DNA of 64,000 nt, taken from Sulfurospirillum oryzae. Its GTDB lineage: Bacteria; Campylobacterota; Campylobacteria; Campylobacterales; Sulfurospirillaceae. Of the stretch, positions 845 through 27,456 are shown one piece after another. Every line of letters starts with the position of its first letter. Within the stretch, counting starts at the first letter, position 1. Position numbers and translations under genes: made by a program. Location: NCBI RefSeq assembly GCF_025770725.1, contig NZ_JANZKZ010000001.1:62001-126000 (forward strand), in the 5' to 3' direction. The notes under the pieces are model-generated. The model worked only from the letters and a program-made list of their open reading frames with translations, searched no databases and was not told the origin of the DNA.

Positions 845-1381
845 CTAAAAGAGCGTGTCGCTTAATATCTCATTAATAATCTCATCGGCTGGACGATTTT
901 TCTCGCGTGCTAATTTTTCGATTTTTTCCACCAAAGAGCTTTGCAAGTAAATCACTGCTCTACTCGTGTTTTCTTCGTCTTTTTTACATTCATCGTACTC
1001 GCGTTGCATCTTAATTTTTGTCTCTTCATCCATGGGTGCTCGAAGAGATTTGTACTCAACCAGTACGCCGTCTTTATAGACACCCGAAACTTCAGCATAG
1101 ACCCAGTAGTAGCCTCCATCTTTGCGAAGATTTTTGACATACCCTTTCCACATTTCACCTCGTCCAAGCGTTTCCCAGAGTGTTTTAAAAACAGAGTGAG
1201 GCATATCGGGATGACGAACAATGTTATGAGGCTTTCCAATGAGCTCATCAATCGCATAACCAGAAATGCGAGCAAATGTTTCGTTGGCATACGTTATTTT
1301 TCCACTTAAATCCGTACGTGAGATAATGAGTTCATCACTTGGAACCGACGTTTCAACAAACATCTGATAGGTCGTTTGCAT
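845..1381 (-). CDS. Aer-type PAS protein with C-terminal ribbon-helix-helix-like segment
   Basis: 178 residues. Residues about 15-125 are a single PAS domain of the Aer/CetB type (LSGKITYANETFARISGY, then GKPHNIVRHPDMP), a family that commonly binds FAD and senses redox state. Residues about 138-178 read RAVIYLQSSLVEKIEKLA and then EKNRPADEIINEIL: a short beta strand and two helices resembling a CopG/Arc ribbon-helix-helix DNA-binding fold. No membrane segment or signal peptide is visible. The ATG follows AAAGG with 6-base spacing and starts 9 bases after the napD stop, so it is probably the last gene of the nap operon. A PAS-RHH protein could be a redox-responsive transcription factor; without DNA binding it would be a CetB-like energy-taxis adaptor. 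The PAS call is firm, the RHH call is by eye. Confidence 0.75.
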   Translation of the reverse strand: MQTTYQMFVETSVPSDELIISRTDLSGKITYANETFARISGYAIDELIGKPHNIVRHPDMPHSVFKTLWETLGRGEMWKGYVKNLRKDGGYYWVYAEVSGVYKDGVLVEYKSLRAPMDEETKIKMQREYDECKKDEENTSRAVIYLQSSLVEKIEKLAREKNRPADEIINEILSDTLF

Positions 1382-1390
1382 AAGATGCCT

Positions 1391-1744
1391 TTAGTGTATT
1401 TTTTTCTTCAAATCACCCTTATAGACAATGTCTTTTAGGGCAACATTTTCATCATTGAGTATGGGTGGAACACTGGGTGATTGCTCTAGCTTTTCTCTCT
1501 CCGCGTCTAGTTCATCTTCACTGTATGCCATCATCATATCGGCACAGATAACATGAGGGATTTTTTCAATCTTTTTCATTTTTGACATCTCTTCATCGAG
1601 ATTTTCGCCCTCGATGGTCACAACAATTTTTCCTTTTTCAATATCGTGAAAATGGTAGTCGCAAAAATCATTCGCTTCGCATGTTGCAATAATTTCTTCA
1701 ACATACTCAGGCTTTGTTTGTATCACAATACTTGAAATATTCAT
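1391..1744 (-). CDS. napD: NapD, periplasmic nitrate reductase maturation chaperone
   Basis: 117 residues starting MNISSIVIQTKPEYVEEI. NapD is a small cytoplasmic chaperone that binds the twin-arginine signal peptide of NapA until its cofactors are inserted. The N-terminal ferredoxin-like fold pattern (SSIVIQ, then GKIVVTIEG) fits the family; the last 35 residues are an acidic/basic extension typical of epsilonproteobacterial NapD. I chose ATG 1744 because GGAG lies 6 bases upstream and it overlaps the napL stop as ATGA; a TTG four codons earlier has no ribosome-binding site. Last recognised member of napAGHBFLD. Confidence 0.88.
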   Translation of the reverse strand: MNISSIVIQTKPEYVEEIIATCEANDFCDYHFHDIEKGKIVVTIEGENLDEEMSKMKKIEKIPHVICADMMMAYSEDELDAEREKLEQSPSVPPILNDENVALKDIVYKGDLKKKIH

Positions 1745-2688
1745 GGCAGTCTCCAAATCATAATAAATTGATCATCGCTTGCACTGACGAGTTCTTTGTC
1801 GCTGGCAAAAATGATGGTATTAAGCGTACTTTTTTGCCCTTTTAACGTATGGACTTTACGTTTAGAAATAAGATCAAACAACACAATATCGTTTTGTTCA
1901 TTAAAGGCAAATGCACCTAAATTGAGGTTTGGGCTAAGGGCACCCGCATAAATGAGAAATGAGCCATCAAACCGCTCAAAGCCACCACTTCCAATATCGT
2001 AAACAATGCCTCGTCTGTCTTGCCCCGCACACAAAACTTTCTCTTTTTTAAAGTCAACTTTATAGACATTGTCCACATTACCGCCTTTAAGCACGGTGGA
2101 TATCTTTCCATTGAGCGCATCAATAATAGTAATCTCACCTGACTCACAAGAGCTTGCAAACATTGTCTTATTTTCATTCAAGGCAAAATCACTAAAATGC
2201 GAAGGATTAGGCTGGATACGGTATATCTCTTTTTTATTTTTAATATCCCACAAAAAAAGCTCGTTGCTTAAAAGCGCTACTAAAATGCGGTTTTTATCGA
2301 TAAATTTGGCTTTAGAAATGAAAAGGTTTGCGTGAGCATCAATAATCACTTTAGGCTTACCCTCTTCAACAAGATAAAGTTCCCTTGCACCACTGCTGGT
2401 TTGAACGACGGCAAGAAGCGTTTTATCTATCATGTCCACGGAAAAAACCTTAGGTGCTATCTCATCTGCTGTAAAGTCTTTGATTTTGGGAAATTCTATT
2501 TTAGAAAGTTTCGTTACGTCGCTTAGTTTATAGGTTTCAAGCGTTCCATTACTCGTCCCTGCAATGATTTTATCATTGACAAGTGCTATTTGCTGTACGG
2601 TACCGGATGCTTCTATGATGTGTTGTGGCGTTAATTCACCACTCCAAAGTAAGCTTGCACACACACTTAAAAAAAGAAGATATTTCAT
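1741..2688 (-). CDS. napL: NapL, periplasmic WD40-like beta-propeller protein of the nap operon
   Basis: 315 residues from MKYLLFLSVCASLLWSG, a Sec signal peptide. The mature part is built of WD40-like blades (SNGTLETYKL, LSNELFLWDIKNK, SGEITIIDALNGK, SASDDQFIMIWRL). NapL occurs in epsilonproteobacterial nap operons; its role is not settled, but it is thought to support NapA maturation or electron transfer in the periplasm. The ATG at 2686-2688 has GGAAGG upstream; a longer reading adds 24 residues that merely overlap napF. The stop overlaps the napD start (ATGA). Confidence 0.85.
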   Translation of the reverse strand: MKYLLFLSVCASLLWSGELTPQHIIEASGTVQQIALVNDKIIAGTSNGTLETYKLSDVTKLSKIEFPKIKDFTADEIAPKVFSVDMIDKTLLAVVQTSSGARELYLVEEGKPKVIIDAHANLFISKAKFIDKNRILVALLSNELFLWDIKNKKEIYRIQPNPSHFSDFALNENKTMFASSCESGEITIIDALNGKISTVLKGGNVDNVYKVDFKKEKVLCAGQDRRGIVYDIGSGGFERFDGSFLIYAGALSPNLNLGAFAFNEQNDIVLFDLISKRKVHTLKGQKSTLNTIIFASDKELVSASDDQFIMIWRLP

Positions 2689-3203
2689 GCCTTCCCTTCC
2701 TCTTTGATCCGAATTGCATCGCTTGGACAAATGCCTATGCACATACCGCATCCAATGCACTGGTCTATCTCAATCGTAGGTTTCCAAAGTCCCAAAAAAT
2801 GAATGGCTCTTGGTTCACACGTATCAAGGCAACTATTGCACAAACTTTGATGCCATGCCATACATGCCATTATATCAATCTCAGCTTTGACATGTAAGTT
2901 TTTTTCATCGTTACATGAAAGGCTTAAAACGTCGTTCGGACACGCTCTTGCACACGCCTCACAAAAGGTACATCCGCCTTTTGTAAAGTCTACGCAAGGT
3001 GTATGGGTGGTAGCATCCAAGAGGATGATATTTTCTTCACACGCTTCCATGCAAGGCGTATCTTTACATGTAACGCAATGATCCAAAAATTCATACCCCT
3101 CTTGATGGTAAGGAGGGCGCACACACAACTCATTTTGATTTTTTTGCGCCTTTTTTTTACCAAAAAGAGAGGCGAAAACCCCTCTTCTGCTACCATCTGT
3201 CAT
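2685..3203 (-). CDS. napF: NapF, cytoplasmic 4Fe-4S ferredoxin-type protein
   Basis: 172 residues with four cysteine clusters: CVTCKDTPCMEAC, CTFCEACARACP, CNSCLDTCEP and CIGCGMCIGICP. NapF is a cytoplasmic iron-sulfur protein that interacts with NapA during maturation. Four-base overlap with napL; follows napB closely. The first cluster is encoded across one copy of the TTACATGTAA palindrome (3064-3073), read in the T-C-K frame. No twin-arginine signal or membrane helix is visible. Confidence 0.9.
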   Translation of the reverse strand: MTDGSRRGVFASLFGKKKAQKNQNELCVRPPYHQEGYEFLDHCVTCKDTPCMEACEENIILLDATTHTPCVDFTKGGCTFCEACARACPNDVLSLSCNDEKNLHVKAEIDIMACMAWHQSLCNSCLDTCEPRAIHFLGLWKPTIEIDQCIGCGMCIGICPSDAIRIKEEGKA

Positions 3204-3205
3204 GG

Positions 3206-3730
3206 CTACTTCACACCTTCATTGAGCGTATCAATGAGGTTTGAACGATTTTTCTCACTCTCTTTACGATAGTCTGGTTTAAAATTATTTTGAACCAAAG
3301 GCTCGTTAGCCGATTGTGGCACATGGCATGCTGAACAGTTATAGCGAGCTTGACTCATCTCTGTAAGCACTTTTTGCGTTCTCATATCGAAAAAGTGAGA
3401 CTTAGGAATTGGAGTCGCTTTCACTGCCTCAGCAACTTCAGGCAAGTGACAACCCGTACACGCATTGCTCTCTTTCGTCATATCTAGCATACCCTCAACA
3501 TCATGAGGAATCAATGGAGGTGCATTTTCAAACGATCTTTGAATCACTTTTGATTCACCTGCGCTCACAGTAGAATACGACGTTGGTTCACCAACAACCG
3601 TTTTTTCGCTGTAAAGATCCACCTTTCTAAGCCCTAACTCTTCTTCATTGTATGATTGTGATACCGCACATCCAGTTGCCACAATAATACTTAACAAAGA
3701 ACCCATTATTAACGTTTTTGTACTAATCAT
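3206..3730 (-). CDS. napB: NapB, periplasmic diheme cytochrome c subunit
   Basis: 174 residues with two heme-binding motifs, CTGCH (91-95) and CSACH (132-136), the hallmark of NapB, the small subunit that passes electrons to NapA. The N-terminal hydrophobic stretch (about 7-20) ends ATGC at Cys21, which could be a Sec cleavage region or a weak lipobox. The mature spacing, with a His-rich PIPKSHFFDMRT segment between hemes, fits the family. The start overlaps the napH stop by 4 bases. Confidence 0.93.
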   Translation of the reverse strand: MISTKTLIMGSLLSIIVATGCAVSQSYNEEELGLRKVDLYSEKTVVGEPTSYSTVSAGESKVIQRSFENAPPLIPHDVEGMLDMTKESNACTGCHLPEVAEAVKATPIPKSHFFDMRTQKVLTEMSQARYNCSACHVPQSANEPLVQNNFKPDYRKESEKNRSNLIDTLNEGVK

Positions 3731-4560
3731 TCTTTTTCTCCTACATTTGTGTTAATGTAATTCCTCACACCAAAAGAGAGTGCATCACTCTCACACACCT
3801 CAACACATCGTCCGCAATTGGTACACTCTCCTGAATCTATGGCGCCACTGCTTTTAGAGATAATGCCAAGAACTTGTTTCTCAGGACAAATCTCTTTACA
3901 CTTCATGCACAAAGTACACTTCGTGTGGTCGTGTTTAACACGTACCAGACTTAAACGCCCCACAAGAGAGTAAAACCCGCCCAAAGGGCAGATGTGTCCG
4001 CACCAGCCATTTTTTACGGCAAAAAGATCAAACAAATAAATGCAAAGTATAGGAGCAGCACTCATACCTATTCCAAATATGACGCCTCTGCTTAAAATCC
4101 CGATAGGACTGACCAGCTCAAATGCCGCAACACCTGTTATGAACGATAGTATAAGGCTAAGGGCTAAAACCCAGTACCTTACATTACGACTCATCCATAC
4201 TTTTCTTTCGACTGCTTTATCCAAGAGGAGCACTCTTCGTGTCCAGTTTGCTGCGTCTGTTACCATATTGAGAGGACATACCCATGAACAAAATGCGCGA
4301 CCACCGACAACCATGTAAAAAAGCAGGATCACAGCAGCACCCGTAAGAACATCTATCCCTGCAAGCGCTCCTGCCGCAAACATCTGCAACAAGGCAAATG
4401 GATCGGCTAAAGGAAGCTTTTTCATCACCAAAGAGGCACTTAGATTGCCGCTTAGAAGCATAAAGCCATACGCATTTGCTGCCACATACAACAAAAGTAT
4501 GCCCAACTGAGTGAAACGTCGTGCCATCATAAAACGGTGGCTTCTTATCCATTCTCTCAT
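3727..4560 (-). CDS. napH: NapH, membrane quinol dehydrogenase subunit
   Basis: 277 residues, NapH/NosR type: four or more membrane helices (about 15-35, 75-95, 130-150, 160-185), a cytoplasmic CxxxCP motif (CSWVCPLN) and a second (CGHICPLGG), then two 4Fe-4S clusters (CTLCMKCKEICP and CTNCGRCVEVCE). NapGH oxidises menaquinol and supplies electrons to NapB/NapA. There is no napC in this operon, so NapGH is presumably the only quinol route. Starts with ATGA overlap on the napG stop. Confidence 0.94.
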   Translation of the reverse strand: MREWIRSHRFMMARRFTQLGILLLYVAANAYGFMLLSGNLSASLVMKKLPLADPFALLQMFAAGALAGIDVLTGAAVILLFYMVVGGRAFCSWVCPLNMVTDAANWTRRVLLLDKAVERKVWMSRNVRYWVLALSLILSFITGVAAFELVSPIGILSRGVIFGIGMSAAPILCIYLFDLFAVKNGWCGHICPLGGFYSLVGRLSLVRVKHDHTKCTLCMKCKEICPEKQVLGIISKSSGAIDSGECTNCGRCVEVCESDALSFGVRNYINTNVGEKE

Positions 4561-5378
4561 TTGAACATCTCCTCATTCGTATTTAAGTAGTCCTGCGCAG
4601 ACTTCTCACTACGTTTGGTATGTGTCGTAACATCGCCGCTCGCTTTTTCTAAGCGTTTCTCGTCCCCTTGCTCCCAGCCTTTAATGTAATGTGAGCCGAT
4701 ACTTCCTTTGGCAATTTCCAAAGGTAACACATGGATCGCCGCTTTTTCGGTGACACACGCTCTCTCGCACAAACCACATCCCGTACAGGTTAGGCTGTTT
4801 ACTATCGGTGTTAAATAAGCATGTTTGCCTGTTCGCTCATTTCGTCTATACTCTAACTTAATCGCACTGTCCATAATAGGACACGCCCTGTAACACGCGT
4901 CACACTGAATCCCCCAAAACGCGATGCACGACTCAACGTCAACGACGGCAAGCCCCATGCGGGCTTTGGTGATGTCAAGTTCTTTGACACCCTCAGTGAT
5001 CTTAGAAACGCTCTTTTCATCCAACGCTCCGCTAGGGCATACAGGCACACAGGGTATGTCTGTACACATATAACACGGAACCTCACGAGGCACAAAAAAA
5101 GGCGTTCCCATAGGTTTTGTGTCACCCGGTTTGGCAAGACTTAGCGTATGGTATGGACACGCAACAACGCACTGTCCACACTTAATACATAGGCGCATAA
5201 AGTCTTTTTCGGCAACTGCCCCAGGTGGGCGAAGAATCAATGGAGCCTTCTTTGCCTCTTCCAAATACCCTGTCCAAACCATGCCACCCAACGCTAAAAA
5301 TCCACTACTTTGAGCGATCAAAGAGAGAAATTTACGACGTGGGCTGATTGCGATTTTATTTGTTTCGTGATTGCTCAC
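4557..5378 (-). CDS. napG: NapG, twin-arginine-exported ferredoxin of the quinol dehydrogenase
   Basis: 273 residues from a GTG at 5376-5378, preceded by AAAGGA at 6 bases; a TTG two codons earlier lies too close to that site. N-terminus SPRRKFLSLIAQ is a twin-arginine signal. Four 4Fe-4S cluster motifs follow (CIKCGQCVVACP, CYMCTDIPCVPVCP, CDACYRACP, CTGCGLCERAC). NapG sits on the periplasmic face and relays electrons from NapH to NapB. Same order napA-G-H-B as in Wolinella and Campylobacter. Confidence 0.93.
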   Translation of the reverse strand: MSNHETNKIAISPRRKFLSLIAQSSGFLALGGMVWTGYLEEAKKAPLILRPPGAVAEKDFMRLCIKCGQCVVACPYHTLSLAKPGDTKPMGTPFFVPREVPCYMCTDIPCVPVCPSGALDEKSVSKITEGVKELDITKARMGLAVVDVESCIAFWGIQCDACYRACPIMDSAIKLEYRRNERTGKHAYLTPIVNSLTCTGCGLCERACVTEKAAIHVLPLEIAKGSIGSHYIKGWEQGDEKRLEKASGDVTTHTKRSEKSAQDYLNTNEEMFK

Positions 5379-5405
5379 TAACAATCCTTTTACATATTGC
5401 GTGCA

Positions 5406-8195
5406 TTAAGCTTTATAAAGCTTAACCGCACATTTTTTATAGTCTGTCTGTTTAGAGATCGGACATGTTGCATCAAGGCACACTTTATTGATGAAAACTT
5501 TCTCATCAAACCAAGGAACATACACCAAACCACGAGGTGTTCTGTTTCTTCCTCTGGTTTCAACGCGAGCTTTACAAGAACCTCTACGACTCTCCAACCA
5601 GATAAGATCACCTTGTTTAAAGCCCTTAGCTTTGGCGTCTTCTGGGTGCATATAACAAAGTGCCTCAGGAACAGCACGGTAAAGCTCAGGTACACGCATG
5701 GTCATCGTACCACTATGCCAGTGCTCTAACACACGACCTGTACATAACCAGCTGTCATACTCAGCATCTGGCATCTCACATGGGTCCATATACGGTCTAA
5801 AGAAAATTTTCGCTTTGTTTTTAAGTGGAAATGTCTCTTCAGTGGTTGGTTTGAGTAAGTTACCTTTTTTGAGGGCTTTCGCAAAATCACCATAGAATGC
5901 AAACTCACCATTATTTGCTTTTGCAGCATAAGGATCATACTTAGCGTTAAATCTCCATTGTGTCTCTTTACCATCGACAACTGGCCATTTAAGTCCTCTT
6001 ACTTTGTGGTAGGTGTCAAAGTCAGCCAAGTCATGTCCATGACCTGTACCAAATTGGCGATACTCTTCCCAGATTGCTTTTTGCAAGAAGAAGCCATACC
6101 CTTTCCACTCTTTACCATCACTGCCCATAACACCACGTTTGTCACCAAAGACTTCCGTGTTGTCAAAGCCATCCCCGATAGGATCTTTTGCTTTAAATGA
6201 TTTGAAAAAGTCGTTTGCAAACAAAATGTCATAAAGCGTATCGGTCTCTTTGTAACCCATCGCTTTTGCCGCTTCGATAACGTTTGGTAATTTGCCACCT
6301 TTAATCGGTTGTTCACCCCAAACATCTGCAATCGTAAAGCGTTTTGAAAGCTCAACCCATTGCCAAGTATCACTCATCGCATCGCCTACTGGGAGGACTT
6401 GTTGTTTCCACTGTTGTGTACGACGCTCTGCGTTGCCGTATCCACCCCATTTCTCATAGATCATCGCAGAAGGTAAAATAAGATCAGAGACTTTGGCAGA
6501 AATTCCTGGATACGCGTCAGAACAGACGATGAAGTTGTCCAAGTTACGTGCCGCTTTAATCCAGTGCTCTGCATTTGCAGTGTCTTGGTATGGATTACAA
6601 ACGTTAACCCATGCAAATTTAATTTTTCCACTCTCGATTTGTCTGTGGATATTCATAATATGTTGGTAACCCATAGGGTTAAGTGTACCAGCAGGCAACT
6701 TCCATACTTTTTCAGTTACTTCTCTATGCTTTGGAATCGAAACGTCCATATCTGCAGGCAAGCGGTGTGTAAATGTACCTACTTCACGCGCTGTTCCACA
6801 AGCACTCGGTTGTCCTGTCAAAGAGAAAGCGCCTTCCCCTGGTTTAGCTTGTTTGCCAAGAAGGAAGTGAACCATATAAGACTGTTCATTGACCCACGTG
6901 CCACGTTGATGTTGGTTCATACCCATTGTCCAGAAACTGACGACTTTACGCTCTTTTTCGATGTAAAGGTTTGCTAATGTTTGAAGTTTTGCTTTGAAGT
7001 CTTCGAGTTTTTCATCAGGATTGCCTTTAGCAATTTTCGCAACATAATCAAGCGTATAAGGCTCTAAACCTTTTTTGAAATCTTCAAAGCTAATTTCCCA
7101 GTGAACACCCGCTAAGTCAGCTTTATCCATGACCATAGTATCGCCGGCTTTAATGCCTAAATGCGCAAGACCTGGAGCCTCTTTTTCAGAGATAATTTTT
7201 TTGTCTTCTTTTCTATTGATTACAAGTTCTTTTTCAGAATAACCATTTTTCTTAGCATCAGCTTCATTTCGCAAACCATAACCGATGTTCGCAAAACCTG
7301 TTGCAAAAATAGTGTTTTTCTTAACAAAATCCCAATCAATCGCTTCTGGGTGATTGTAAACAATCTCACGAGCGATATAGTTCCAAATGGCAAGATCAGT
7401 ACTTGGAGAGAAGATGATTTCGATATCCGCGAGATCAGAACAACGATGTGTATACGTTGAAAGGTTGATGACTTTAACTTTCTCTGCATGTGAAAGCTTG
7501 CGATCACTTACCCTTGACCATAAAATCGGATGCATCTCCGCCATATTTGCACCCCATGTCACGATAGTGTCAGTGAGTTCGATGTCATCGTAACAGCCTG
7601 CTGGCTCATCAATTCCAAACGTTTGCATAAAGCCAGCAACCGCTGAAGCCATACAGTGACGAGCATTTGGGTCGATGGCATTTGATCTAAAGCCCGCTTT
7701 CATAAGCTTGGCAGCGACATAGCCTTCGTGAATGGTGTATTGACCTGAACCAAACACACCGATGGCTTCTGGGCCACCTGCTTTCATCGCAGCTTTCATG
7801 TGTTTTTCCATCTCGTCAAACGCACGTTTCCATGAGACAGTTTTGAATTGACCATGTTTGTCAAATTCACCTTTGTCATTCATACGTAAAAGTGGTTCTT
7901 TGAGACGGTCAGCTCCATACATAATTTTGGCATTAAAATAGCCCTTGATACAGTTAAGTCCACGGTTTACCGGAGCTGCTGGATCACCTTTAACAGCGAC
8001 AATTTTACCGTCTTTTGTTGCCACCATGATGCCACAACCGGTACCACAGAAACGACAAACGGATTTGTCCCAACGCCAACCGGCTTCTGCTTGTTCACCA
8101 GCAGCCTTTAGCTCGGCGGGTACGCTAATACCCACAGCAGCAGCAGCGCTCGCAGCGGCAGTTGTTTTTAGAAAGTCTCTTCTTGAAAGCGACAT
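5406..8195 (-). CDS. napA: NapA, periplasmic nitrate reductase catalytic subunit
   Basis: 929 residues, the usual length. Twin-arginine signal [10 protein letters not shown] at residues 3-12 with an Ala-rich hydrophobic stretch. The 4Fe-4S ligands are Cys47, Cys50, Cys54 and Cys82 (CRFCGTGCG, later NCIKGYF). Cys181 in the [10 protein letters not shown] segment matches the molybdenum-ligating cysteine of NapA. C-terminal molybdopterin-dinucleotide binding segments ([19 protein letters not shown]) are intact. It reduces nitrate to nitrite in the periplasm, with a Mo-bis-MGD cofactor. AGGAGG precedes the ATG. First gene of napAGHBFLD, expressed from a Crp/Fnr-type promoter at 8227-8268. Confidence 0.97.
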
Positions 8196-8226: not shown

Positions 8227-8268
8227 ATTCTATCACTAAGCGGAAATCCAATCTATGACTTAAGTCAA
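8227..8268 (-). promoter_or_regulatory. nap promoter with Crp/Fnr-type box
   Basis: On the minus strand a 14-bp box TTGACTTAAGTCAT (8255-8268, core TGACTTAAGTCA is a perfect palindrome) lies upstream of an extended -10, TGATAGAAT (TAGAAT at 8227-8232). The box centre is 34.5 bases from the distal edge of the -10, so about -41.5 from the expected transcription start near 8220: class II activator geometry. The leader to the napA ATG is about 25 bases. The nrf promoter has the same layout. Box and spacing are seen; the factor is inferred (one of the two Crp/Fnr proteins near nrf). Confidence 0.75.
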
Positions 8269-8690
8269 TACTTTAGTTTGCTAAATTTAATTTTTCCCAT
8301 AAATTGGCTGTTGGAAGCAAAAACGCATTGTTAACTTTTTTGGTAGAGAATTCATCATTTTCGCACACTCTATCTTAAAGATTCTTTTAAAAAATTGGAC
8401 AGTTTTTTACATGGAAGTATGTGTTGAACTTTTCTAGCCATCTTTGACTTCTTTCTGCAACAAAAGCATTACATGTAAAACGCTTTCAACAAGAGGAGAA
8501 TTATTTTTATTCAGTTTGATTTGATCCAATTATTTCATCGGCGTTTCTAGGAAAAAGGTGGTAAGTGTAGCCTATTGCCTTTATTTGTCGTAGCCGAGGG
8601 AGTTTTAAATCTCTTTTCTTCAAAAAACAATAAAAAGAAAAGAAAAAAGTAATCTTTTGGAAAAATGTGAGCCTTAAGAAGATGAAAGAA
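8269..8690. other. Intergenic stretch between nap promoter and porin terminator
   Basis: About 420 AT-rich bases with no convincing gene on either strand. It holds one TTACATGTAA palindrome at 8469-8478 and several poly-A/T runs. No tRNA-like or riboswitch-like structure recognised. Confidence 0.5.
8469..8478. repeat. TTACATGTAA palindrome, intergenic copy
   Basis: One of only four copies outside genes; it lies about 250 bases upstream of the nap transcription start and 265 bases after the porin stop, so a promoter role for this copy is unlikely. Confidence 0.8.
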
Positions 8691-8692
8691 GT

Positions 8693-8716
8693 AACAGTGG
8701 CATTACTGCCACTGTT
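8693..8716 (-). terminator. Stem-loop terminator after the porin gene
   Basis: Perfect 10-bp inverted repeat AACAGTGGCA / TGCCACTGTT with a 4-base loop, 26 bases past the porin stop. The minus-strand tail (ACTTCTTTC) is only partly U-rich, so termination may be incomplete or aided by other factors. Confidence 0.65.
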
Positions 8717-23786: not shown

Positions 23787-25238
23787 TTATGCGACATCAG
23801 GGTTGGCTTCAACAACCATACGTTCTAATGTCACAAAAAGCGTCTCACTGTTTCGTTCCATCATCTCAATATTAGACACAATGGCATTTTTATTCTGAAC
23901 CATCATCTCCCACGTTTGAGTCATCTTAATCGTTTCTAAGATTTTGTCATGAATCATTTGGTGTGGCGCTTGCAACATTTTGAAGCTTGGTGTTCGAACA
24001 AAGTGTTCTTTTTCACTGCTGACATCGCCCTCATACCATCGACCAAACGCACACTGATGATGATCAGGAAAGACTTTTTGGTTTTCATTTTTATCCATAA
24101 TTGCGGTATAGGCATTATGTTTTAAAATAATATGATCCACTTTAAAACGTGCACTCAAAAGTGAATCATTGATGAACCTAGAGACTTTTTCAGAATAAAG
24201 CGCATTGGTCGCAAAATCTTTTAGCGTCATCGTAAAATTGCTCATTTTTACTTGGGACTGTGTTGCAATCGTGCTAATGGTTTCTGAATTGTCACGAACT
24301 TCCATAGCACCTTGTTTAAGACTTTGAAGCGTCATAGAAATGTTTTGTGTTGCTTTGGAAGTTCGTTCTGCTAAATCACGTACCTCAGAAGCAACTACGG
24401 CAAAACCACGTCCATGCTCACCTGCGCGTGCCGCTTCAATAGCCGCATTAAGGGCTAAAAGGTTCGTTTGATCTGCAATATCATTGATAAGGCTAGCCAC
24501 GCTATTAATATCATTAATACGCTCATGCAGTGAAACGATTGTCGCATTAGAATCCCCTAAGAGACGCATCAAATGATCTAAGCTAATAACCATCTGTGCG
24601 ATACTTTCTTGGCTAGAGAGAGCATCTTTAGCTGTTTTGGTTGAAGCATTATTGATATTGTGAGCAAAATCACTGTTTTTAATAATATCGCTAAGGATCA
24701 TCTCTAAAGACTCTGCAATTCCCCCACTAATGCGTTTGAATTCCATGTTCAGGTCATTGTGAAACTTCCCTTTGTACGACGCAGCAACATCATGAACGAC
24801 CTGTGTCACCATCTGTGAAACGGTAACAAAATCACCTTTGTATCCCTCTTTAAAGGAGATACGGGAATTTTGACCAAGATTGGCACACTCCAAAGAGGCT
24901 CTCATATCACGAATCATCTGCTCCACTTGATCTAAAAGATCGTTAATATCCCATGCAACCCCTTGCAAAACATGATCTTCAGGAATATTGACAATGCGGT
25001 AAGAGAGGTTACCCTTACCTGCTTTCTCCAAAATATCGCGAATTTGACGAATCAGATCATCGTTAAAAATTTTCTGACATACAGACTCCTGAGGTAAAAA
25101 ACATCCTCCTAAAAGCAACACGAAAATACTTAGCGCAACGGCGGTATAACCTAAATAAGCAAAAAAACCTGCGCACCCTACTATCAGAAGCACATATAAA
25201 AGTGTTTGTTTAGTGTTGTAAAGAGAGGACAAATTCAT
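23787..25238 (-). CDS. Methyl-accepting chemotaxis protein with C-terminal CZB zinc-binding domain
   Basis: 483 residues. Two membrane helices near 10-50 with almost no periplasmic part, then a HAMP-like/linker region, the MCP signalling hairpin with [34 protein letters not shown] at about 262-295 (quoted in part: [20 protein letters not shown]), and a CZB domain at about 365-480 with HNAYTA and [15 protein letters not shown] domains bind zinc through Cys/His and sense zinc or hypochlorous acid. Its start overlaps the upstream PAS gene by 29 bases, an arrangement like CetA/CetB, in which a separate PAS protein delivers the signal. Confidence 0.88.
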
Positions 25239-25719
25239 CGTATGTCATTCCTTGCTTATTTAATTGTTCGTCTAAAAATTTCTTAGAAGCTTCCAGCCCT
25301 TGGCTCTTTTCAATGCTTAAAAGTTCACGGTATAAAGAGGGGATTACCTCCATACTTTTGGCACTTGGCTTGCGTCTGACCGAGTGAAAATCACGAATCT
25401 GCCCTTGCGCATCCGTTGTGGCTGTCACATTGGCAAAAACCCAATAATAAGAACCATCTTTCGATAAATTTTTGACATAAGCAAAAATCTCTTCTTTCTT
25501 TAAGATGCGATTCCATAACATTTTAAAAACGATTTGTGGCATATCAGGATGTCTCAGAATGGAGTGAGGCGAACCTAAAAGTTCTTTGTCACTGTAGCCT
25601 GAGAGCTGAATAAAACTTTTATTTCCATAGGCAATCACCCCTTTGGTATCGGTTTTAGAGACAATAAAATCATCTTCAGATAAAAATTTTTCATTTTTGT
25701 TAGGAATGGGTTGTTCCAT
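25210..25719 (-). CDS. Aer-type PAS protein (CetB-like energy-taxis partner)
   Basis: 169 residues; PAS at about 14-125 with [18 protein letters not shown] and [13 protein letters not shown], the flavin-binding Aer type. C-terminal 45 residues are helical ([21 protein letters not shown]), unlike the RHH-like tail of the PAS protein at 845-1381. No membrane segment. AGGAG precedes the ATG. Coupled to the downstream MCP, so probably the redox sensor for that receptor. Confidence 0.83.
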
Positions 25720-25764
25720 ATATATTACTCCTATAAATTTCTAAACCTTATATATAAAGTTTAT

Positions 25765-27456
25765 TCACGTTCTAAACTCAGAGAGTTTGAGGTTCAACGT
25801 TTCAGTCATACGACTTAGATGTTCAGCCGTACTAGCGATCTCTTCAACACTTCTAGCATTTTGAGATGAGATGCCATTGATCTTAGTAACATCATCTATC
25901 ATAGACTCAATGTCCGTACCCGTTTTAAGATAATTTTGCGTTGTCTTATCGGAAATGTTTGTTGAAATTTCCATAACACGAGAAAGTTCGTTGATTTTTC
26001 CTTCAACATTGTTTGCTGTAACCGCCAATGTTTCGACTTTTTTCGAATTTTGCGTCATCTTTTCACTGCTATCGATGATAGCTTGGACAATAACATTGAT
26101 CGTGGCATTGATCTCTTGAAGACTTTTTTGGGTACGTTCTGCAAGCTTTCTTACTTCATCAGCAACAACCGCAAAGCCTCGTCCATGTTCACCAGCCCTT
26201 GCTGCTTCAATAGCCGCATTAAGAGCAAGTAAATTGGTTTGGTCAGCAATATCTCCGATGACAACTAAAATATCCTTAACCTGCTCGGCATCGGTACTTA
26301 ATTGTTGAATCTTCCCTGCAAGTTCAATTTCAGTTATAACGCTACTTTGAATATCTTGGGTTAACACTAAAAGAGCACTGTTTGCTTCACTTAAAAAAGT
26401 ATTCGCTTTCAGTAACTCCTCTTTTCCCTCTTTTGCTTCGACGATTCCTGCAGCTAGTTCATCTTTCAAAACATTGGCTTTTGAAGTCGTACCGCTAACA
26501 ATTTGCATTGAGGTTTCTACAGCTCGACCTACTTCTAAAGAGGTGGAAGAGAGTTCATGCGAAATAGAAGAGTTTTCATTAGAGAGATTTTTTGCCTCAC
26601 TGATGAGAACACGTACTTTTTCAATAAAACGATTAATGCTCGTACTTGCAAGTGCAATCTCATCATTGCCAATCACTTCAAGTTGACGTGTAAGATCGCC
26701 CTCTCCGCTAGAGAGGTTATCAGCTCTTTGAATTAAATTACGAAGTGGCGTTGTCACTGTCTTGTTGACATAAAATAACGTAGCAAGAATACACACAAGA
26801 ATAAATGCCAAGGAAACAAGCGTAAAATACTTAATTTGTTGTCCAATACTTTCATCCATCTCTTGCTTAATAAGCGCAATTTCTTCTTCAACATTATCAA
26901 CATAAACCCCTGTTCCTAAAGCCCAATTATAAGGCTCAAAAGAAACTGCATACGTAAATTTGAGCAAAGGCTTTCCATCTTTAACTTTAGGGAAGTAGTA
27001 TTTAATTAAACCACCTCCTTTTTTAGCAGCTGCAATAAGTTCTTTAACGATATAAAAGCCATTACTGTCTTGGATTTCTAACCGATTGACACCTACCATT
27101 GCTTTATTGACGGGGAACAAAACAGTAACCCCATTGGGGTCATAACCAAAGATATAACCACTCTTGTCATTGAAAAAACGTATTTCATTGAATTTTTCTA
27201 AAATGGCTTCCTTAATTTTTTCATCAGGAACTCCTCGCTCTTTTTCAGTTTTATAAATAGCATTTGCCATGTCTAAAACAACTTTCATAATCTCTTTGAT
27301 GTCTTTTTCATACGCGGCATACTGACCTTGTCTATATTTTTCTATAAACAATGCCGTATTTTTTTTCGTATTGATATACGATAAACCTAAAAAACCAATA
27401 CCTAAAAGCGTCATTGACACGATTAATGCAACAATAATCTTACTCGAAATCTTCAT
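25765..27456 (-). CDS. Methyl-accepting chemotaxis protein with single-Cache sensor
   Basis: 563 residues. TM1 about 7-28, periplasmic sCache-type domain about 35-205 ([40 protein letters not shown]), TM2 about 210-232, HAMP about 233-285, then the signalling domain with [20 protein letters not shown]. sCache_2 domains bind small carboxylates or similar ligands. The cytoplasmic half is nearly identical to that of the next MCP gene (27526-29154), which has a different sensor. No C-terminal CheR-tethering pentapeptide. Confidence 0.9.

Follow-up and report, generated by a model that had tools for sequence, protein, structure and literature searches.

The closest described relatives of the protein analysed here come from two sides. 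One comprises the FAD-PAS proteins Aer of E. coli, NifL of A. vinelandii and MmoS of M. capsulatus, which signal through a chemoreceptor module or kinase-type domains, and the other the repressors CopG, Arc, AmrZ and NikR, which carry the strand-helix-helix unit of the ribbon-helix-helix (RHH) fold. An RHH domain in a flavin-linked protein is found in trifunctional PutA, which switches in a redox-dependent way (PMC5293562); there the RHH domain is N-terminal and accompanied by large enzyme domains. In the same phylum as our organism, CetB and CetC of Campylobacter are small soluble Aer-type PAS proteins, which in C. jejuni act on the receptor CetA (PMC10746189). A PAS-domain gene also appears among the nap, nor, nir and nos genes in the denitrification figure of the campylobacterial denitrifier Nitrosophilus labii (PMC11539149); as that figure labels it only as PAS domain-containing and describes neither tail nor function, we liken it to our family by its label alone.

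In a window of 64,000 nucleotides from Sulfurospirillum oryzae we analysed a gene behind napD whose product, called PAS-RHH in the following, joins an Aer-type PAS domain to a tail with an RHH-type fold. The protein has the PAS fold and the FAD-contact residues in common with Aer, NifL and MmoS but differs from them in its output, which is the RHH tail. With the repressors it shares the strand-helix-helix, with R141 aligned by hand to CopG R4, whereas its RHH is C-terminal and preceded by a flavin PAS domain, the other two outward strand positions hold V and Y, and the segment is slightly acidic. The likeness to PutA lies in the RHH domain of a flavin-linked protein, although the flavin is predicted here and no enzyme domain is present, and unlike CetB the protein is encoded next to nap genes and ychF and not beside a CetA-type chemoreceptor. 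A literature search for a PAS and RHH pairing or for PAS proteins in nap operons returned no description of the pairing in the papers searched, which supports an earlier sequence-only reading in calling the combination unusual.

The gene and its place in the nap operon

The genes napD, L, F, B, H, G and A lie upstream of the PAS-RHH gene, contiguous and in order, giving the arrangement napAGHBFLD followed by PAS-RHH (Table 1). Position and strand of the gene as well as the distance of nine nucleotides to napD (1382-1390) agree with the sequence-only reading, which had also proposed a good ribosome-binding site; such a site is indeed present in the upstream sequence (gene strand, 5' of the ATG: CACTAAAGGCATCTT), but the AAAGG, which overlaps the napD stop, would be a moderate one. 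Protein length is conserved: of 17 further relatives in the alignment, 16 have 178 aa and the remaining one has 174 aa. A Pfam search of the protein identified PAS and RHH-like segments only, with no proline dehydrogenase or other enzyme domain. The description as last nap gene is safe, but it is not safe to take it as the end of the transcript, because ychF, likewise on the minus strand, begins 61 nt behind it and a search of the interval for a terminator-like site found none.

Table 1: Features of the PAS-RHH gene, its protein and the nap operon (positions in the window).
Feature	Position	Strand	Residues	Remarks
PAS-RHH gene	845..1381	minus	178 aa	ORF, ATG start
RHH helix B	854..889	minus	165-176	AlphaFold2 model
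RHH helix A	899..940	minus	148-161	AlphaFold2 model
Ribbon strand	941..970	minus	138-147	R141 A V143 I Y145 L; extended in AlphaFold2 model
Connector helix	971..1027	minus	119-137	AlphaFold2 model
Aer-type PAS domain	1037..1330	minus	18-115	Putative FAD-pocket residues H52, R56, W69, N84, R114
napD	1391..1741	minus		Pfam NapD, E 5e-22
napL	1741..2688	minus		Internal ATG start assumed; conserved order
napF	2685..3203	minus		Named from order and ferredoxin-type sequence
napB	3206..3730	minus		Named from order and c-type haem motifs
napH	3727..4560	minus		Named from order and sequence type
napG	4557..5384	minus		Named from order and sequence type
napA	5406..8195	minus		NCBIfam NapA equivalog
Crp/Fnr-like palindrome, napA promoter	8253..8268	minus		TTGACTTAAGTCATAG; -10-like TAGAAT at 8227-8232

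Further observations were made around the start of the operon. The napA promoter at 8227-8268, with its palindrome and a conserved 5' leader, is near-identical throughout the genus. A strong terminator-like hairpin, AACAGTGGCA...TGCCACTGTT, lies at 8690-8716 between a porin-like gene and napA, and two relatives have a similar sequence ahead of napA. In three members of the genus that lack PAS-RHH, the TTGACATAAGTCATAG site occurs a second time, in front of a gene whose product starts with MRRTIKFQLGL, and a second site of this type is also present in genome G015.

Sensor half and tail of the protein

The PAS domain matches Pfam PAS_3 (E 6e-16), its nearest solved structure by sequence is the PAS domain of E. 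coli Aer (E 1e-33), and its model superimposes on the Aer crystal structure with a TMt of 0.90 and an rmsd of 1.1. Judged by sequence as well as by fold, it is closest among solved structures to the FAD-PAS domains in Aer, MmoS and NifL. In the Aer crystal structure FAD is contacted by H53, R57, W70, N85 and R115 (PMC9668731). The five pocket residues listed in Table 1 match these in the same order and are invariant in an alignment of 48 homologues, and because of these invariant counterparts FAD binding by PAS-RHH is likely. The assignment as an Aer-type, probably FAD-containing PAS domain is thus borne out by fold and pocket residues.

For the complete protein we obtained an AlphaFold2 model as a single chain from 48 aligned sequences (mean pLDDT 89.9, pTM 0.80), in which the PAS domain is followed by a connector helix, an extended strand and two helices; the tail modelled alone (44 residues, 34 aligned sequences) reached a pLDDT of 89. 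The best structural matches of the tail model in the PDB were CopG, AmrZ, PutA, ParD-type antitoxins, NikR and Arc, and with either aligner the top rows were almost all RHH proteins. The tail fits CopG over 38 columns at 1.2-1.3 Å with 32% identity. The match scores are modest (best Foldseek E 0.097, Z 4-6), as is expected for a domain of only 44 residues. When the tail profile was searched against the PDB, the top rows were repetitive designed proteins (dTor), which were set aside as composition artefacts, and the natural sequence matches included the RHH proteins AvtR, HP0222 and ORF56.

With Pfam the protein itself scores 15.0 bits against RHH_1 as a whole and 18.3 bits as tail alone, the cut-off being 20.5. 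With the family as a whole the signal is far above what chance would give: among 34 related tails the commonest families were RHH_1 (8 members), RHH_3 (6), RHH_5 (5) and RHH_7 (5), and the same search with 34 shuffled tails gave no RHH match. One Aquificota relative just reaches the RHH_3 cut-off (21.6 against 21.6). Together the models and family matches support an RHH-type fold, so that the beta-helix-helix part of the sequence-only reading, which had proposed a DNA-binding tail of about 40 residues, stood. The tail is under purifying selection in those pairs that could be measured (dN/dS < 0.5), which is a broad statement only as many other pairs were saturated or too close. Its mean net charge is -0.8 and that of the preceding arm -0.9, so both are slightly acidic.

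A second Aer-type PAS protein of the window (25210-25719) indeed does not carry this tail, as had been noted before. It is encoded between two chemoreceptor-type proteins in a CetA/CetB-like set (23787-27456), and further PAS paralogues of the genome (loci L004 and L006) share its own type of tail (GxEASxxFL...YxxF).

Distribution and homologues without helices

A survey covered 397 genomes of the class, with E < 1e-65 defining a strong homologue. Such homologues are present in 91 genomes, all 91 of which also possess napD, and in 82 of them the gene adjoins napD (65 after and 17 before it). Within the genus, 16 of 24 genomes contain the PAS-RHH gene and the other eight lack it yet still have napD. 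Among 18 relatives whose loci were read the gene is located directly behind napD in 17, the 18th locus being on a short contig that carries no nap gene. Homologues following napD with a tail of the strand-helix-helix type were also identified in Aquificota (Persephonella and other Hydrogenothermaceae). One family member is located on a plasmid of Sulfuricurvum kujiense, and the single public record that was checked calls it 'PAS domain-containing protein'; at a close relative of this locus a Crp-type gene comes next. The family is widespread and tied to napD in the nap operons of Campylobacterota and of Aquificota; its anatomy is as described from the window and its distribution wider than could be known from one sequence. 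At four loci of Hydrogenimonas-like genomes PAS-RHH stands behind genes of the glyceraldehyde-3-phosphate dehydrogenase and acetate kinase type, and not with nap.

Full-length matches that include both helices account for 36 of the 91 strong homologues by our reading of the match table, and 32 of these 36 adjoin napD, whereas about 50 of the 82 napD-linked homologues have no match over both helices. Many of the latter, from other families, end at about residue 147, just past the strand (for example ...ENIRRVIYT or ...KTRKVIYE). The spacing between PAS domain and ribbon is fixed across the family: 27 residues beyond R114, 95 of 98 members carry R and two carry K. V/I143 and Y145 are kept alike in long, intermediate and short forms, so that R-x-V/I-x-Y is present with or without helices. 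Strand positions 142 and 146 behave differently, being mostly hydrophobic in long and mostly polar in short forms, and because of this dependence the helices, where present, probably pack on that face of the strand.

The outward face with R141, V143 and Y145 corresponds to the DNA-reading face of RHH proteins, and as it is conserved in homologues without helices it probably has another, helix-independent role as well. Since the helix-less napD-linked forms that were read keep the strand, DNA binding cannot be what this face does in every member. The three residues as a conserved DNA-reading triad were a candidate that is weakened by their presence in helix-less forms; this also weakens the case for DNA binding by the tail, which we still consider plausible. 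A tree of the PAS core (138 columns) shows the forms with and without helices intermingled. Repeated loss of an old RHH tail would agree with this pattern, although 138 columns do not fix the direction.

Possible functions of PAS-RHH

We tentatively regard PAS-RHH as a switch that responds to flavin redox state and acts through an RHH head. It would most likely be a one-component regulator, a reading to which we give a little less than even confidence. According to this model a soluble switch would be made together with the nap enzymes, its PAS domain would bind FAD and, like Aer, NifL and MmoS, sense how reduced the electron-transport pool is, and the redox change may travel via the connector helix of fixed length to the C-terminal strand-helix-helix. 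Two copies of the latter would form an RHH dimer, whose most likely action would be to bind DNA and adjust the transcription of energy-metabolism genes. In favour of such a regulator we counted the structural match to Aer, the invariant FAD residues, the RHH matches, the change of strand positions 142 and 146 from hydrophobic to polar where the helices are missing, the linkage to napD and the selection on the tail. Against it we counted that DNA is not typically read by residues such as V143 and Y145, that tail and arm are slightly acidic, that the strand face is equally conserved without the helices, that no operator linked to the gene was found at napA and that the gene is absent from eight of 24 genus members with napD. 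A refinement, which we consider rather unlikely, would be a new kind of flavin switch within one protein: depending on its redox state, the PAS domain would either clasp the outward R-x-V-x-Y face of its own ribbon strand or let it go, the dimer would read DNA only after this release, and helix-less relatives would keep the docking strand for another output.

The main rival is a CetB-like signalling subunit, in which the FAD-PAS domain would report redox to a protein partner through the ribbon strand and the RHH-like helices would only serve dimerisation or stability in some lineages; NapD, another Nap assembly factor or an energy-taxis chemoreceptor could be the partner. We find this quite possible, if on the whole doubtful. 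Helix-less homologues at the same napD-linked spot keep R-x-V-x-Y, the adjacency to napD survives a change of gene order, and CetB and CetC provide a precedent for Aer-type PAS proteins that act on another protein. However, an RHH fold that does not bind DNA is rarely retained, no chemoreceptor gene occurs in the stretches read around the PAS-RHH gene, and the CetB-type paralogues of the genome have a different tail.

As a special case of the one-component regulator, the RHH head could bind the napA palindrome and tune its own operon, which would agree with the position of the gene in the nap operon and with the strong conservation of the site: TTGACTTAAGTCAT or a close variant is present at the napA promoter in 39 of 44 family genomes, usually in one copy per genome. 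In most napA promoters read, however, the centre of the palindrome is located at about -41.5 when the start is inferred from the -10-like TAGAAT, a position typical of Crp/Fnr-type activator sites. Moreover, the palindrome differs by one mismatch only from the Nss-type Crp/Fnr consensus TTGA-N6-TCAA (PMC11539149), and it is kept in genus members without PAS-RHH. No operator whose presence followed that of the gene was found at the napA promoter among the 44 family genomes, and the palindrome, being present with or without the gene, was rejected as an operator tied to PAS-RHH. The redox feedback on nitrate respiration suggested by the sequence-only reading is unsupported, as the sole conserved napA palindrome is Crp/Fnr-like and independent of the gene, and we regard such autoregulation as improbable. 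That the tail resembles RHH proteins by chance and is an ordinary two-helix PAS cap is very improbable, because, even if this protein by itself scores under the Pfam threshold for RHH and the Foldseek E-values of the short tail are weak, the best structural rows are almost all RHH proteins with either aligner and the family matches vanish in shuffled tails.

If PAS-RHH binds DNA as the one-component reading has it, two known modules would be joined in a very compact redox regulator, carried in the nap operons of sulfur and vent bacteria of two phyla, and flavin redox state would act directly on gene expression in a group for which nap control has otherwise been ascribed to Crp/Fnr proteins. 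Should it not bind DNA, the surprise would be an RHH-like head turned to protein signalling. Either way, the PAS-RHH gene is a clear and overlooked part of the nap locus.
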